Source: Zanthoxylum bungeanum (taxonomy: Eukaryota > Streptophyta > Magnoliopsida > Sapindales > Rutaceae). From it: 64,000 bases of DNA. Position numbers and translations under genes: made by a program. The stretch is from contig SKCR01031817.1 of NCBI GenBank assembly GCA_019454045.1, positions 1 through 64,000 on the forward strand, read 5' to 3'. The notes under the pieces were generated by a model, which was not told the origin of the DNA, made no database searches, and worked only from the letters and a program-made list of their open reading frames with translations. This document shows positions 57,404-63,877 of this stretch, in pieces. Within the stretch, counting starts at the first letter, position 1; the number at the start of each line of letters is the position of its first letter.

Positions 57404-58037
57404 ATGGAAGCCACTTCAAGAAGACGAGTTGAAAACATCTGTGTGTTTTGCGGTAGGTGTAGTATTTGGTACTAAGCCACAATACGTAGAAGCAGCACAT
57501 GAATTGGGTCGAGTCATAGCTGCAAGGAATATGCACTTAATATATGGCGGGGGCAATCTTGGACTTATTGAGATCGTTTCAAAGGCTGTACAGGAAGGAG
57601 GCAGTCACGTTTTGGGAATCATCCCAAAACCCTTGGCGAGGCAAATCTTATTGGATCATCAAACGGAGATGAACTGATCGTGCCAGGTATGTCTGAACGA
57701 TGGTAGAAATGATTAACCGTGCTGATGCTTTTATCGCTTTGCCAGGTGGCTTAGGCACATTGGAGGAAATTTTTATAGTATTATCTTGGGCGAACCTGAA
57801 CATACACCAAGAAACAGCTTTGGATTTTCAACGTTGATGGATTTTATGATTTTCTTTGTGTGTTTCTTGATGATGCCCGTAGAAATGGGTTCGTGTCAAA
57901 ACCTATGAAAGAACTCCTATATACTGCCAGAACTGCTACGGATCTAATTGACCAACTCTTAGCCTATGAACCACAAGTTGACCCTATCATTTCAAAGATA
58001 AATTGGCCGAGGACGATCGTGGTAAGAGGCGTCGGAT
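57404..58037 (+). pseudogene. LOG: LOG-like phosphoribohydrolase gene carried by element E, frameshifted
   Basis: This is an intronless homologue of LOG, which releases active cytokinin bases from riboside 5'-monophosphates in the cytosol or nucleus. It starts MEATSRRRVENICVFCG and shows YGGGNLGLIEIVSKAVQEGG, VLGIIPKPLA and, in another frame, ALPGGLGTLEEIFIV: the family Pro-Gly-Gly-x-Gly-Thr-x-Glu-Glu motif is intact. Compared with copy F it has small indels near 57452, 57640, 57700, 57812 and 58006, so no full product is possible. Plant LOG genes normally have several introns; their absence here points to capture from spliced RNA. The opal stop of copy F is not present here. Confidence 0.85.
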
Positions 58038-59375
58038 AATATGGATCTTAACCTTTAATTTCCTGTAGAATTTCAGCTAACCAGGTACTATCTTCTAAAC
58101 TCTTCTTCTACTTGTTTTAAGACATTGGGGACATGTCTCATTAGGTTTGGGGGAGGAATTAGTTGATCAGTACCTTGTTTTTTTTAGTTTGTGTGTATTT
58201 TATTTTTAGTTCAAAATTTTTCGAAAAATTACAAAAAAATTGAAAATTTTTCAAAAATAACAAAAATATTTTGCGTTTTTATTTTTATTTTGACTAAAAA
58301 TGTGAAATTGGGAAGAGATAGCTGAGTAAGGAGTTTCCACTCCTGAGACGTATCTCAAGCCTATTTTCGAAATAAGTTAATTTTTGTTTATTTCCTTTTA
58401 AATTATTTAATTTGTAAATTCTCCATAAAACGGACTAAAATGGATTTTCATATGCTCAGTTAACAGGTATTATCAACATGCATAAGAACATACGAACATG
58501 AGTTAAAATTGAAAAGTTTGTAATATTCAGTGCTCTAGTTTAATTGGAGGAAGCATCTCAAAAAGCATGGAGTAAAAAAAAAAATGGGGATGATCCGAGT
58601 TATTAAATCTGTAAGGGTGTTTTTAAACACCTAGGGCCCTAAAACCAACTGGTTTGGGATCACTGACCCAAAGCTCGCTACATGGATCAAAGATGCTGCA
58701 AAAATATCTGAAGTCTTAGTAATTAAGTCCTTAGGGTTGTCTTAACACCTGGTGCCTTAAAGCTAACTGGTTTGGGAGCCACCGACCCAACACTCGTTAC
58801 ATAGATGGAAGATATTGTATATAAATAAAAAAAAAAAATCAAAAATCAAAGAAAAAAAATCAGAAAAATGAAAAAAATTTATTCCATTGCTACAAAAAGG
58901 TGTGAAATCTGATAGAACTTTAGGACAAAAATATTACTCTCTTATCAACTGCACTATGACTGTTGTGGGCAAAAATGAGTTGTTTAATATTTTGTTGGCT
59001 GTGTATATGAAGAATGGTAAAAATAATCGGAGAATTTACTTATTCAGTAATTTATAAAGAAACAAAACAACTAGTAACTTGGAGTAGAAATTTTACCTGA
59101 TTAGTCACTAACTTCTTTATTCTCTTTTCGCTTGTCTTTTTTCTTTTGTGTGCATTATTTAACTACCTTTTTACTTTTGTAAAATATTTGTGGGTATCAT
59201 TGCTGTAAACCCTCACGAGACTACGACCCGTCCACTAGGGACACCTATGGTTAAAGGCTTGTTGCATACGCTAAATGCAACCGTGATCCCTACAAAAATG
59301 GCTTAGTTAAATTTTATTATGTTATTTTATTTTGTGTTTTGCTCGAGGACTAGCAAAATGTTGGGTTTGGGGGTG
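58038..59375 (+). other. 3' untranslated region of gypsy element E
   Basis: It includes a polypurine-like GGTTTGGGGGAGGA (58147-58160), two imperfect tandem units (58599-58815) each with a TTTGGG/CCCAAA-type hairpin, and the shared block around TTGCATACGCTAAATGCAAC. The true polypurine tract GGTTTGGGGGTG lies at 59364-59375. No gene. Confidence 0.65.
58599..58815 (+). repeat. Paired ~110-bp imperfect repeats with hairpin-forming ends (E)
   Basis: Each unit has GTAAGGGTGTTTTTAAACACC- or AGGGTTGTCTTAACACC-like sequence, AACTGGTTTGGG, then GACCCAA, CTCG and TACATrGATs. GGTGTTT/AAACACC and TTTGGG/CCCAAA pair within unit 1. Both units are also found in element F (62470-62690, inverted). Confidence 0.65.
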
Positions 59376-61904: not shown

Positions 61905-63223
61905 ACACTTCCAAACCTAATATTTTGCTAGTCCTCGAGCAAAACACAGAATAAAATAATATAAACATCTTTAAAATAAAATTTAACTAAGCCACTTTCG
62001 TAGGGATCACGGTTGCATTTAGCATATACAACAAGCCTTTAAACCTCTAGGTGTCCCTAGTGGACGAGTTGTAGTCTCGTGAGGGTTTACAATAATGATA
62101 CCCACAAACTTTTTACAAAAGTAAGAAAATAGTAAAACTAATGCACACAAAAGTAAAAAGACGAGAAAATAGAATAAAGAAGTTAGTGACTAATCAGGTG
62201 AAACTTCTACTCCAAGTCACTAGTTGTTTTCTTTCTTTCTAAATTACTGAATAAGTAAATTCTCCGATTATATTTACCATTCTCCATATACACAGCCAAC
62301 AAAATATTAATCAACTCATTTTTGCCCACAACAGTCACAAGTGCAGTTGATAAGAGAGTAATATTTTTGTCCTAAAGTTTTATCAAAATTTTCACCTTTT
62401 TATAACAATGGATAATTTTTCTGATTTTTTTCTTTGATTTATGATTTTTTTATTTATATACAATATCTTCCGTCTATGTAGCGAGTGTTGGGTCGGTGGC
62501 TCCCAAACCAAATGGCTTTAGGGCACCAGGTGTTAAGACACCCCTACAGACTTAATTACTCAGAATTCAGATATATATATTTTTGCAGCATCTTTGTTCC
62601 ATGTAGCGAGCTTTGGGCCAGTGACTCCCAAACCAGTTGGCTTTTGGGCACTAGGTGTTAAAACACCCTTACAGACTTAATAACTCGGATCTTATATGTT
62701 TTTTTTCTTACTCCAATTCTTTTCATAGATGCTTCCTCCAATTAAACTAGAGCACTGAATATACAAACTTTTCAATTACAGCTCATGTCTGTATGTTACC
62801 ATGCATGTTGATAATACCTGCCAACTGAGCATATGAAGATCCATTTTAGTCAATTTATGGAGAATTCACAAATTAAATAATTCAAAAAGAAATAAACAAA
62901 ATTTAACTTGTTTCGAAAATGGGTTGAAATACGTATCAGGAGTGGGAACTCCTTACACAGCTATCTCTCACCCATTTCACCTTTTTAGTCAAAATAAAAA
63001 CAAAACGCAAAATATTTTTGTAATTTTTGAAAATTTTTCAATTTTTTTTGTATTTTTCGAAAACTTTTGGGCTAAAAATAAAAACAACACACAACTAAAA
63101 ACAAGATACTAATCAACTAATTCCCTCCCCCAAACCTAAATGAGACATTGTCCCCAATGTCTTAAACAGTAGAAGAAGAGTTATGAAGATAGTACCTCGT
63201 TAACTGAAATTCTACACGAAAAG
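61905..63223 (-). other. 3' untranslated region of gypsy element F
   Basis: It is co-linear with 58038-59375 of E in reverse. The polypurine tract read on the minus strand is GGTTTGGAAGTG (61905-61916), the paired hairpin repeats lie at 62470-62690, and a polypurine-like GGTTTGGGGGAGGGAA lies at 63124-63139. No gene. Confidence 0.65.
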
Positions 63224-63877
63224 TTAAAGGTTAAGATCCAAATTAATCCGACGCCTCTTACCACGATCGTCCTCGGACCAATTTATCTTTGAAATGATAG
63301 GGTCAATTTGTGATTCATAGGCTAAGATTTGGTCAATTAGATCCGGAGCAGTTCTGGCAGTAAAGAGGATCTCTTTCATAGGTTTTGTTACGAACCCATT
63401 TCTCCGGGCATCATCAAGAAATACACAAAGAAAATCATAAAATCCTTCAACATTGTACAGTCCAAGCGGTTTCTGGTGTATGTTCAAGTTTGCCCAAGAT
63501 AACACTGTAAAAATGTCCTTCAATGTACCCAAGCCACCTGACAAAGCAATAAAAGCATCAGCACGGTTAATCATTTCTACCAGTCGTTCAGACATACCTG
63601 GCACAATTAGCTCTTCTCCGTTTGATGGTCCAATAAGATTTGCCTCCGCCAAGGGTTTTGGGATGATTTCCAAGACTTGACTGCCTCATTCATGTACAAC
63701 CTTTGAAACGATCCACATTAGTCCAAGATTGCCTCCGCCATATACTAAGTGCATATTCCTTGCAACTAATACTCGACCCAATTCATGTGCTGTTGTTACA
63801 CATTGTGGCTTAACACCAACACTAGTACCGCAAAACACACAAATGTTTTCAACTCGCCTTCTTGAAGTGGCTTCCAT
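63224..63877 (-). pseudogene. LOG: LOG-like phosphoribohydrolase gene carried by element F, one stop codon
   Basis: A 217-codon intronless frame interrupted only by a TGA at codon 64 (63686-63688), where copy E has GGA. Family blocks in order: NICVFCGTSVGVKPQ (11-25), MHLVYGGGNLGLM (42-54), EIIPKPLAEA (70-79), MSERLVEMINRADAFIAL (95-112) with the conserved Arg, and ARTAPDLIDQILAYE (174-188). The hallmark motif reads SGGLGTLKD (113-121): Pro is Ser and the first Glu of the pair is Lys, so the catalytic acid is lost. The length fits LOG (about 210-225). The tail ends KRRRINLDLNL, a basic run plus an LxLxL (EAR-like) motif not expected in LOG. Neighbour: 3' LTR of F, 1.3 kb downstream. Confidence 0.88.

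Follow-up and report, generated by a model that had tools for sequence, protein, structure and literature searches.

Two nested retrotransposons that carry LOG

We analyzed the first 64 kb of contig C28221 (SKCR01031817.1; hereafter the window) from the Zanthoxylum bungeanum assembly GCA_019454045.1, which comprises 3.956 Gb in 51,709 contigs. Two related long terminal repeat (LTR) retrotransposons, E and F, lie in opposite orientation at the right end of the window, and each of them carries a homologue of the cytokinin-activating enzyme LONELY GUY (LOG). Element E (51448-60567) is a complete Ty3/gypsy insertion with two LTRs, a 5-bp target site duplication (TSD), a primer binding site and a polypurine tract. 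It is flanked by CTATC on both sides (51443-51447 and 60568-60572) and reads on the plus strand. By sequence comparison, its 5′ LTR (TGATGAG...GGTCA) spans 51448-53623, and just inside it lies the primer binding site TGGCGCCGTTGCCGGGGA (53630-53647), which we take to be complementary to tRNA-Asp, the Athila-type primer. The same primer site occurs at position 2588 of a related locus, L009, whose LTR ends at about 2580. The gag gene of E (53779-54699; Pfam Retrotrans_gag, E 2.7e-22) is followed by a protease region (54810-56291; Asp_protease_2, E 5.5e-4, just under the cut-off) that is fused directly to the end of the integrase; E lacks the reverse transcriptase (RT), RNase H and the core of the integrase.

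Between this pol remnant and LOG lies a second accessory gene (56598-57131), which matches Pfam Viral_NABP (E 5e-8) and encodes a basic KKRRAKR stretch together with a cysteine cluster. The preliminary description of the window, made from its letters alone, did not mention this gene. LOG itself (57404-58058), delimited from open reading frames (ORFs) and by alignment to an intact copy, is split over several frames and retains the PGGLGTLEE motif. It is followed by a 1.3-kb 3′ non-coding region (58059-59375), at the end of which a polypurine tract adjoins the 3′ LTR (59376-60567, sequence comparison). The latter is 1192 bases long, about 1 kb shorter than the 5′ LTR. Because of this length gap, a global MAFFT alignment of the two LTRs (82%) was set aside, and their identity was taken from BLAST pieces (89.7% over 941 columns and 95.5% over 266 columns).

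Element F, on the minus strand, is represented in the window by its LOG, its 3′ non-coding region and its 3′ LTR only, the remainder being beyond the window. Its LOG (63224-63877, by alignment) has 217 codons with one internal TGA, after which the frame is open over 153 aa, and reads SGGLGTLKD in place of PGGLGTLEE. The 3′ non-coding region (61906-63223, sequence comparison) leads to the first part of the 3′ LTR (60568-61905), which resumes to the left of E at about 51447-50950. When the two flanks of E were joined and one TSD copy was removed, the joined sequence aligned through the junction with same-family LTRs of 14 fetched loci and of other parts of the window (72-88% identity). The flanks of E are therefore two halves of one LTR, and E inserted into the 3′ LTR of F. 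Over 2.7 kb, the two elements match in inverted orientation at 85.4% identity, and in both of them, as in L009, the 3′ LTR begins 1.3 kb past LOG (at 59376 in E, at 61905 in F, and at 8303 in L009, where LOG ends at 6966). The preliminary description had reported two intronless LOG copies in opposite orientation, 1.3 kb before the 3′ LTR, with matching flanks and different lesions, all of which we could reproduce. It had also placed LOG after pol; the position is correct, but in E only gag-protease and an integrase remnant precede the gene, as RT, RNase H and most of the integrase have been lost. The single 217-codon frame would fit the capture of LOG from spliced RNA.

An inverted match of 85% over 2.7 kb might also arise from one large inverted duplication, with LOG being a host neighbor outside the element, an alternative that the preliminary description had itself raised. 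We rejected this explanation as practically untenable. E has its own TSD and nests in the LTR of F, which indicates that the two are separate insertions, and thousands of other copies exist, with the same context in the fetched loci. Moreover, both elements have closer relatives elsewhere in the genome. The 3′ region of E has 39 other genomic copies at 90-93% identity (best 40 of 10,822 first-look candidates, query included), and that of F has 39 at 89-93% (best 40 of 8,594, query included). By LOG sequence, F ranks only 56th closest to E among 59 copies. Therefore, one inverted duplication cannot explain E and F, and LOG moved with separately inserted elements, as had been proposed.

An Rfam snoR71 match (C/D small nucleolar RNA, snoRNA) above the cut-off lies antisense within gag of E (54259-54365, minus strand). 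Such matches were also found in three of the five other loci scanned (L016:691-797, L023:5016-5122 and L025:3168-3274). This could mean that a snoRNA-like sequence is part of the element or, alternatively, that some members of the Rfam family derive from such elements.

Copy number and structure of the family

The genome-wide search that the preliminary description had suggested revealed further copies in large numbers. Two exact LOG 24-mers occur 11,679 and 11,458 times in the assembly, compared with 0 occurrences of the reversed control patterns across it. We also obtained a sample that was blind to LOG by searching with the 3′ non-coding DNA of L009 and fetching 38 of the 40 matches (the other two were L009 itself and L010). 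LOG was present in 34 of these 38 copies, and 32 LOG copies were aligned after L038 and L053 had been dropped as too short. Each 24-mer is present in 21 of 32 sampled copies, a frequency that yields 17,500-18,000 LOG copies. Alternatively, the 48 copies common to the first 100 and 98 listed 24-mer places yield about 23,900 copies (19,800-30,100), assuming that the two marks are independent. Overall, we estimate that the assembly holds roughly 17,500-30,000 LOG copies, with fragments counted as copies and probable uncollapsed haplotypes included. Per haploid genome there may be fewer, because haplotypes seem to be uncollapsed in some contigs; L009 and L010 are identical in LOG, NABP and the 3′ region, and the contig pairs C2154/C13046 and C29015/C41298 have PF03641 matches at near-identical places.

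In a genome search with PF03641, the best 150 of 47,331 first-look candidates were scored; all 150 passed the Pfam cut-off, and 147 had no stop in the matched stretch. On the basis of these matches and the thousands of exact 24-mer matches, LOG as a chance neighbor was rejected. When a fragment of Arabidopsis LOG3 was used as the query, the two best matches (66-67% identity, starting at query residue 16/17, in 113-aa open frames) looked like host exons, and the other 148 scored matches, about 50-55% identical, looked like element copies. The initial observation of LOG-bearing gypsy elements is confirmed on a larger scale, and the data support the amplification of these elements together with the gene.

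To describe the structure of the family, we took twenty 10-kb loci from the best LOG matches, i.e., loci chosen by LOG. All 20 contained LOG, with an open frame in 17, and an NABP piece lay upstream in 17 of the 20. LTR pairs were also seen in L009, L010, L011, L012, L014, L022 and L025, some of them truncated where the fetched sequence ends. The sister copy L026 retains what E has lost: its gag (209-985) is followed by one 909-aa ORF (2443-5172) with RVT_1, RNase H, H2C2 and rve in order, which is the RT-RNase H-integrase order of Ty3/gypsy, and it additionally holds part of NABP and LOG. A second class resembles E in lacking the stretch from RT to integrase while keeping gag-protease, NABP and LOG (L009, L010, L012, L014, L017, L023 and L025). 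In the third class (L011, L020 and L022), LOG and the 3′ region lie between LTR sequences; gag, pol and NABP of the LOG-bearing family were not found in these three loci, and L011 and L022 hold other gag-like frames, as judged by eye. In L015 and L018, a unit of about 3.5 kb that comprises NABP, LOG, the 3′ region and part of an LTR is repeated head to tail, with adjacent units 98.6% (L015) and 96.8% (L018) identical. Elsewhere in the genome, a tandem NABP-like array comprises seven same-strand Viral_NABP matches spaced at about 1.86 kb (C23952:418412-429796). We refer to the family as Athila-like in view of its primer site, the extra genes that precede its 3′ LTR and what has been published on elements with LOG; two Athila-like elements with similarity to LOGL4 were reportedly described by Steinbauerova in 2011.

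Constraint on LOG and features of the two accessory proteins

In the LOG-blind sample, the LOG frame was open in 11 copies and broken in 23. Across the 32 aligned copies, differences at codon positions 1, 2 and 3 were 0.086, 0.052 and 0.149, respectively, and those from transversions only were 0.038, 0.0195 and 0.0625. The excess at position 3 is therefore not the product of cytosine deamination, since transversions alone show the same rise. A codon model gave an omega of 0.279, with a log-likelihood (lnL) of -4648.5 compared with -4777.4 at omega 1. A second set of 31 rows from loci with an open LOG, labelled by locus and with L005-L008 and L010 omitted as duplicates, gave an omega of 0.266; 9 of the 31 rows had a gap or stop, which was masked in the count. 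Change at positions 1+2 and at position 3 amounted to 0.339 and 1.075 on internal branches and to 0.568 and 1.207 on terminal branches, and the lower ratio on internal branches is the pattern expected when the evolving lineages are constrained. The preliminary description had proposed to measure dN/dS among element copies; the value of 0.28 is not near 1, and the internal branches are more constrained than the terminal ones. LOG was under purifying selection while the element amplified.

LOG could nevertheless be a passenger, captured once from a spliced transcript and of no help to the element. The 23 broken copies among the 34 sampled and the dead LOGs of E and F would be consistent with this explanation, but an omega of 0.28, which improves the log-likelihood by 129 relative to omega 1, strains it. 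Additionally, element-like LOGs, including those of Populus and Xanthoceras, appear to form one group (support 94/90) with long internal branches and open frames, and LOG is kept in derivatives without pol, or without detected gag, pol and NABP. We therefore regard a passenger as very unlikely and prefer the view that the element makes use of an active LOG.

The protein sequence is consistent with this preferred view. LOG of L007 scores 173.8 bits against the TIGR00730/PF03641 family (curated cut-off 96.35). The nearest solved structure to the element LOG is Arabidopsis At2g37210, which was also the best PDB match of a model of the close relative P0002 (pLDDT 85.6; TM 0.94 on the target), so that a LOG fold is predicted for the element protein. 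Against the NCBIfam equivalog NF058542, the element LOG reached 113.8 of 300 bits, and the Arabidopsis-type host protein P0241 likewise stayed under the cut-off of 300 bits (132.4). Arg98 and Glu121, which we take to be the catalytic residues of LOG, are kept in 27 and 31 of the 32 LOG-blind copies, respectively. The fold, the PGGxGTxEE motif and the Arg/Glu pair are common to plant LOG1/3/4 and LOG8, and the element LOG is 40-46% identical to host LOG1/3/4-type proteins. In contrast to the host proteins, the element-like LOGs appear to cluster in a group of their own, apart from both LOG1/3/4 and LOG8 (support 94/90), and mostly carry an added basic LxLxL tail, and the host motif MHxRK reads MSERL in the element LOG (Arg kept; Lys and His changed). 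Most element-like LOGs have variants of MHxRK, and the Xanthoceras rows keep MHERK.

The changed Lys and His, next to an Arg/Glu pair kept in most copies, might mark a shift to a nucleotide role other than cytokinin activation. LOG would then hydrolyse N6-modified or immune-signal nucleoside monophosphates, or adjust the nucleotide supply of reverse transcription. The nucleosidase PpnN is among the related folds, and orchid Gypsy elements acquired an m6A demethylase, according to the accessible part of PMC9289625, which suggests that N6-modified adenine matters to other plant elements. However, the Xanthoceras element-like LOGs retain MHERK, and we consider such a role unlikely compared with that of an active cytokinin-activating LOG.

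A basic stretch followed by LxLxL forms the C-terminus of 90 of the 120 listed element-like relatives (81 of the 96 of full length). Among 120 host LOG1/3/4-type proteins and 120 NABP relatives, none ends in LxLxL, and shuffling of the tails produced it in a mean of 1.2 of 120. These counts are no census, because both LOG sets are the top of similarity rankings (of 5,774 proteins ranked against one element LOG and of 7,997 ranked against Arabidopsis LOG3), and the hosts are limited to proteins of the LOG1/3/4 type. In the element-like proteins, LxLxL is preceded by basic residues (median of 5 Lys/Arg over 12 aa, compared with 1 for the hosts), and the tail is disordered in the predicted model (residues 203-217, pLDDT under 50). 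It reads LDLNL in 28 of the 32 sampled copies (3 gapped, 1 LDINL), with 4 changes on the tree by parsimony. Six element-like tree rows lack the tail, including the deepest branches P0035, P0074 and P0113 (the last two from Xanthoceras) and L023. LxLxL is the pattern of the EAR repression motif, and the tail may represent an EAR-type TOPLESS motif with a nuclear signal. Records named Populus LOGL10 (P0033, P0038 and P0064) rank among the element-like LOGs and share their LxLxL tail; the gene annotated under this name may stem from an element.

If the tail were the primary feature, catalysis would be secondary, and LOG oligomers would form a scaffold in the nucleus that uses LxLxL to recruit or titrate TOPLESS. 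The prevalence of LxLxL in the element-like clade and its absence from the 120 host proteins, the basic residues before it and the disorder of the tail all agree with such a scaffold, yet the LOG core itself is constrained, and the tail is missing from the six rows mentioned, which include the deepest branches and a copy from this genome. We give the scaffold as little weight as the altered nucleotide role, and an active LOG remains our preferred reading.

The NABP-like protein is about 182 aa long and has extra conserved N- and C-terminal regions in addition to the basic stretch and the cysteine cluster. Of 32 relatives, Viral_NABP matched 26 and Carla_C4 matched 24 (E up to 1e-3), and none of six shuffles of two relatives matched Viral_NABP. 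The 32 aligned relatives share 24 invariant columns; the named ones come from Xanthoceras, Populus, Acer, Rhamnella and Orobanche. In the genome, all of the best 150 of 19,137 first-look candidates passed the Viral_NABP cut-off, and Viral_NABP had no match in any of 14 control genomes. The basic stretch followed by a cysteine cluster and the Pfam families Viral_NABP and Carla_C4 are features of carlavirus and allexivirus cysteine-rich proteins, and the homology to viral proteins spans about 85 residues. Compared with the carlavirus and allexivirus proteins, the element protein differs in its length of about 182 aa, its extra conserved terminal regions and its location in a retrotransposon. A search of viral contigs gave 83 pattern matches for NABP relatives, none of which was confirmed, and only 23 distant LOG-fold matches for LOG relatives (L067-L089). 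Of the 38 stretches of 1.9 kb in the LOG-blind sample, 4 had an open NABP and 15 a broken one, while none was found in the other 19. For 35 NABP copies, the codon model gave an omega of 0.381 (lnL -3696.2 compared with -3745.7 at omega 1). Viral relatives of NABP are silencing suppressors; the p12 protein of chrysanthemum virus B is described as a weak silencing suppressor and hyperplasia-inducing transcription factor in the accessible part of PMC12172455, and as an activator in the nucleus and a suppressor in the cytoplasm in that of PMC7588395.

A putative role for LOG and NABP and its relation to known elements

Considering the gene order, the separate insertions, the roughly twenty thousand copies, the predicted LOG fold, the Arg/Glu pair kept by the majority of sampled copies and the purifying selection on LOG, we propose a putative role for the accessory genes. 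In this Athila-like Ty3/gypsy family, the region between pol and the 3′ LTR carries two of them, one for the NABP-like protein of about 182 aa and one for a 217-aa LOG phosphoribohydrolase with a predicted disordered basic and LxLxL tail. The element would make an active LOG, which would free cytokinin in the cells that transcribe the element, and the tail would direct LOG to TOPLESS corepressors, to the nucleus, or to both. Silencing would be dampened by the NABP-like protein. Together, LOG and NABP would favor dividing, meristem-like cells, in which new insertions can reach the germ line. Non-autonomous derivatives, which have lost pol or in which the gag, pol and NABP of the family are not found, retain LOG. 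We infer that LOG is expressed and enzymatically active and that it benefits the element, and we assign a probability of about 0.6 to the reading in which an active LOG favors dividing cells and NABP dampens silencing. More tentatively, the element may be a plant counterpart of gene-transducing retroviruses, in which a virus-derived silencing suppressor or transcription factor and a nuclear, TOPLESS-recruiting, cytokinin-activating enzyme push cells to a meristem-like state and thereby aid germ-line entry; we consider this extended form doubtful, though less so than the altered nucleotide and scaffold roles.

Several observations weigh against an active LOG assisted by NABP. Most sampled LOG copies are broken, including those of E and F, and Arg98 is lost in 5 of the 32 aligned copies. 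Catalysis or specificity of the element LOG may have shifted, because MSERL replaces MHxRK. The clade support of 94/90 is below what the tree tool counts as shown, and the element-like LOGs of other plants (Populus and Xanthoceras) are known from protein sequence alone. With regard to the partner, NABP is not always needed, since L011, L020 and L022 are without detected NABP. Transversions in NABP are flat over the codon positions (0.037, 0.042 and 0.041), so that selection on it within the genome is not secure. Its model is poor (pLDDT 61.5), and Foldseek gave no match under E 0.001 with this model; ranks 2, 3 and 5, with E above 1, are of viral origin and bear the names silencing suppressor or nucleic-acid-binding protein.

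The presence of LOG in gypsy elements is already known from Citrus and is not new in kind. According to the accessible part of PMC9289625, which cites Steinbauerova 2011, gypsy consensuses of Citrus sinensis and C. clementina contain YgdH (LOG), as do those of Populus trichocarpa when the filter of that study is not applied. Within the literature searched, this was the only report of LOG in retrotransposons that we found, as far as the accessible text extends. Those elements are similar to ours in belonging to Ty3/gypsy and in encoding an additional domain of the LOG family, and the accessible text makes no mention of a viral-type NABP, an LxLxL tail, copy number or selection. Our additions are the viral-type NABP partner, the LxLxL tail, the scale of amplification and the selection on LOG. 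No NABP-like gene in retrotransposons was found by title or abstract in the literature searched, whose coverage leaves out most subscription papers. The orchid Gypsy elements took up an AlkB/2-ODD m6A demethylase that is active in vitro (PMC9289625, accessible part), and they likewise represent a retrotransposon lineage that stably keeps a cellular enzyme; however, the enzyme and pathway differ, and activity was seen there, whereas LOG here is known from sequence. Extra ORFs, env-like or otherwise, lie in the same position and sense in Athila and further elements (PMC7264820; sunflower Athila and Tekay, PMC11728184; both in their accessible parts). Those of the Athila type are env-like, whereas the genes described here belong to identifiable families, one cellular and one viral-type. 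In the accessible text, the review of additional ORFs (PMC7264820) contains no word starting with LOG, and the word cytokinin is absent from PMC11728184.

Further repeats were observed elsewhere in the window. A direct 2-kb repeat (27722-29752 and 35433-37479, 96% identity) probably represents the two LTRs of another, fairly young element. An LTR-like pair (38681-40278 and 44406-45982, 90.5% identity) surrounds an open gag-like ORF (41239-42093), and this element is perhaps copia-type without a full pol.

The ranking of the Populus LOGL10 records with element-like proteins is a warning for gene annotation. If the element LOG is functional, selection has preserved a hormone-activating enzyme in a mobile element, which has placed about twenty thousand copies of it in one assembly. 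This raises the questions of whether such elements alter cytokinin levels, whether hormone state controls where retrotransposons jump, and whether counter-defence genes are common to retrotransposons and RNA viruses.

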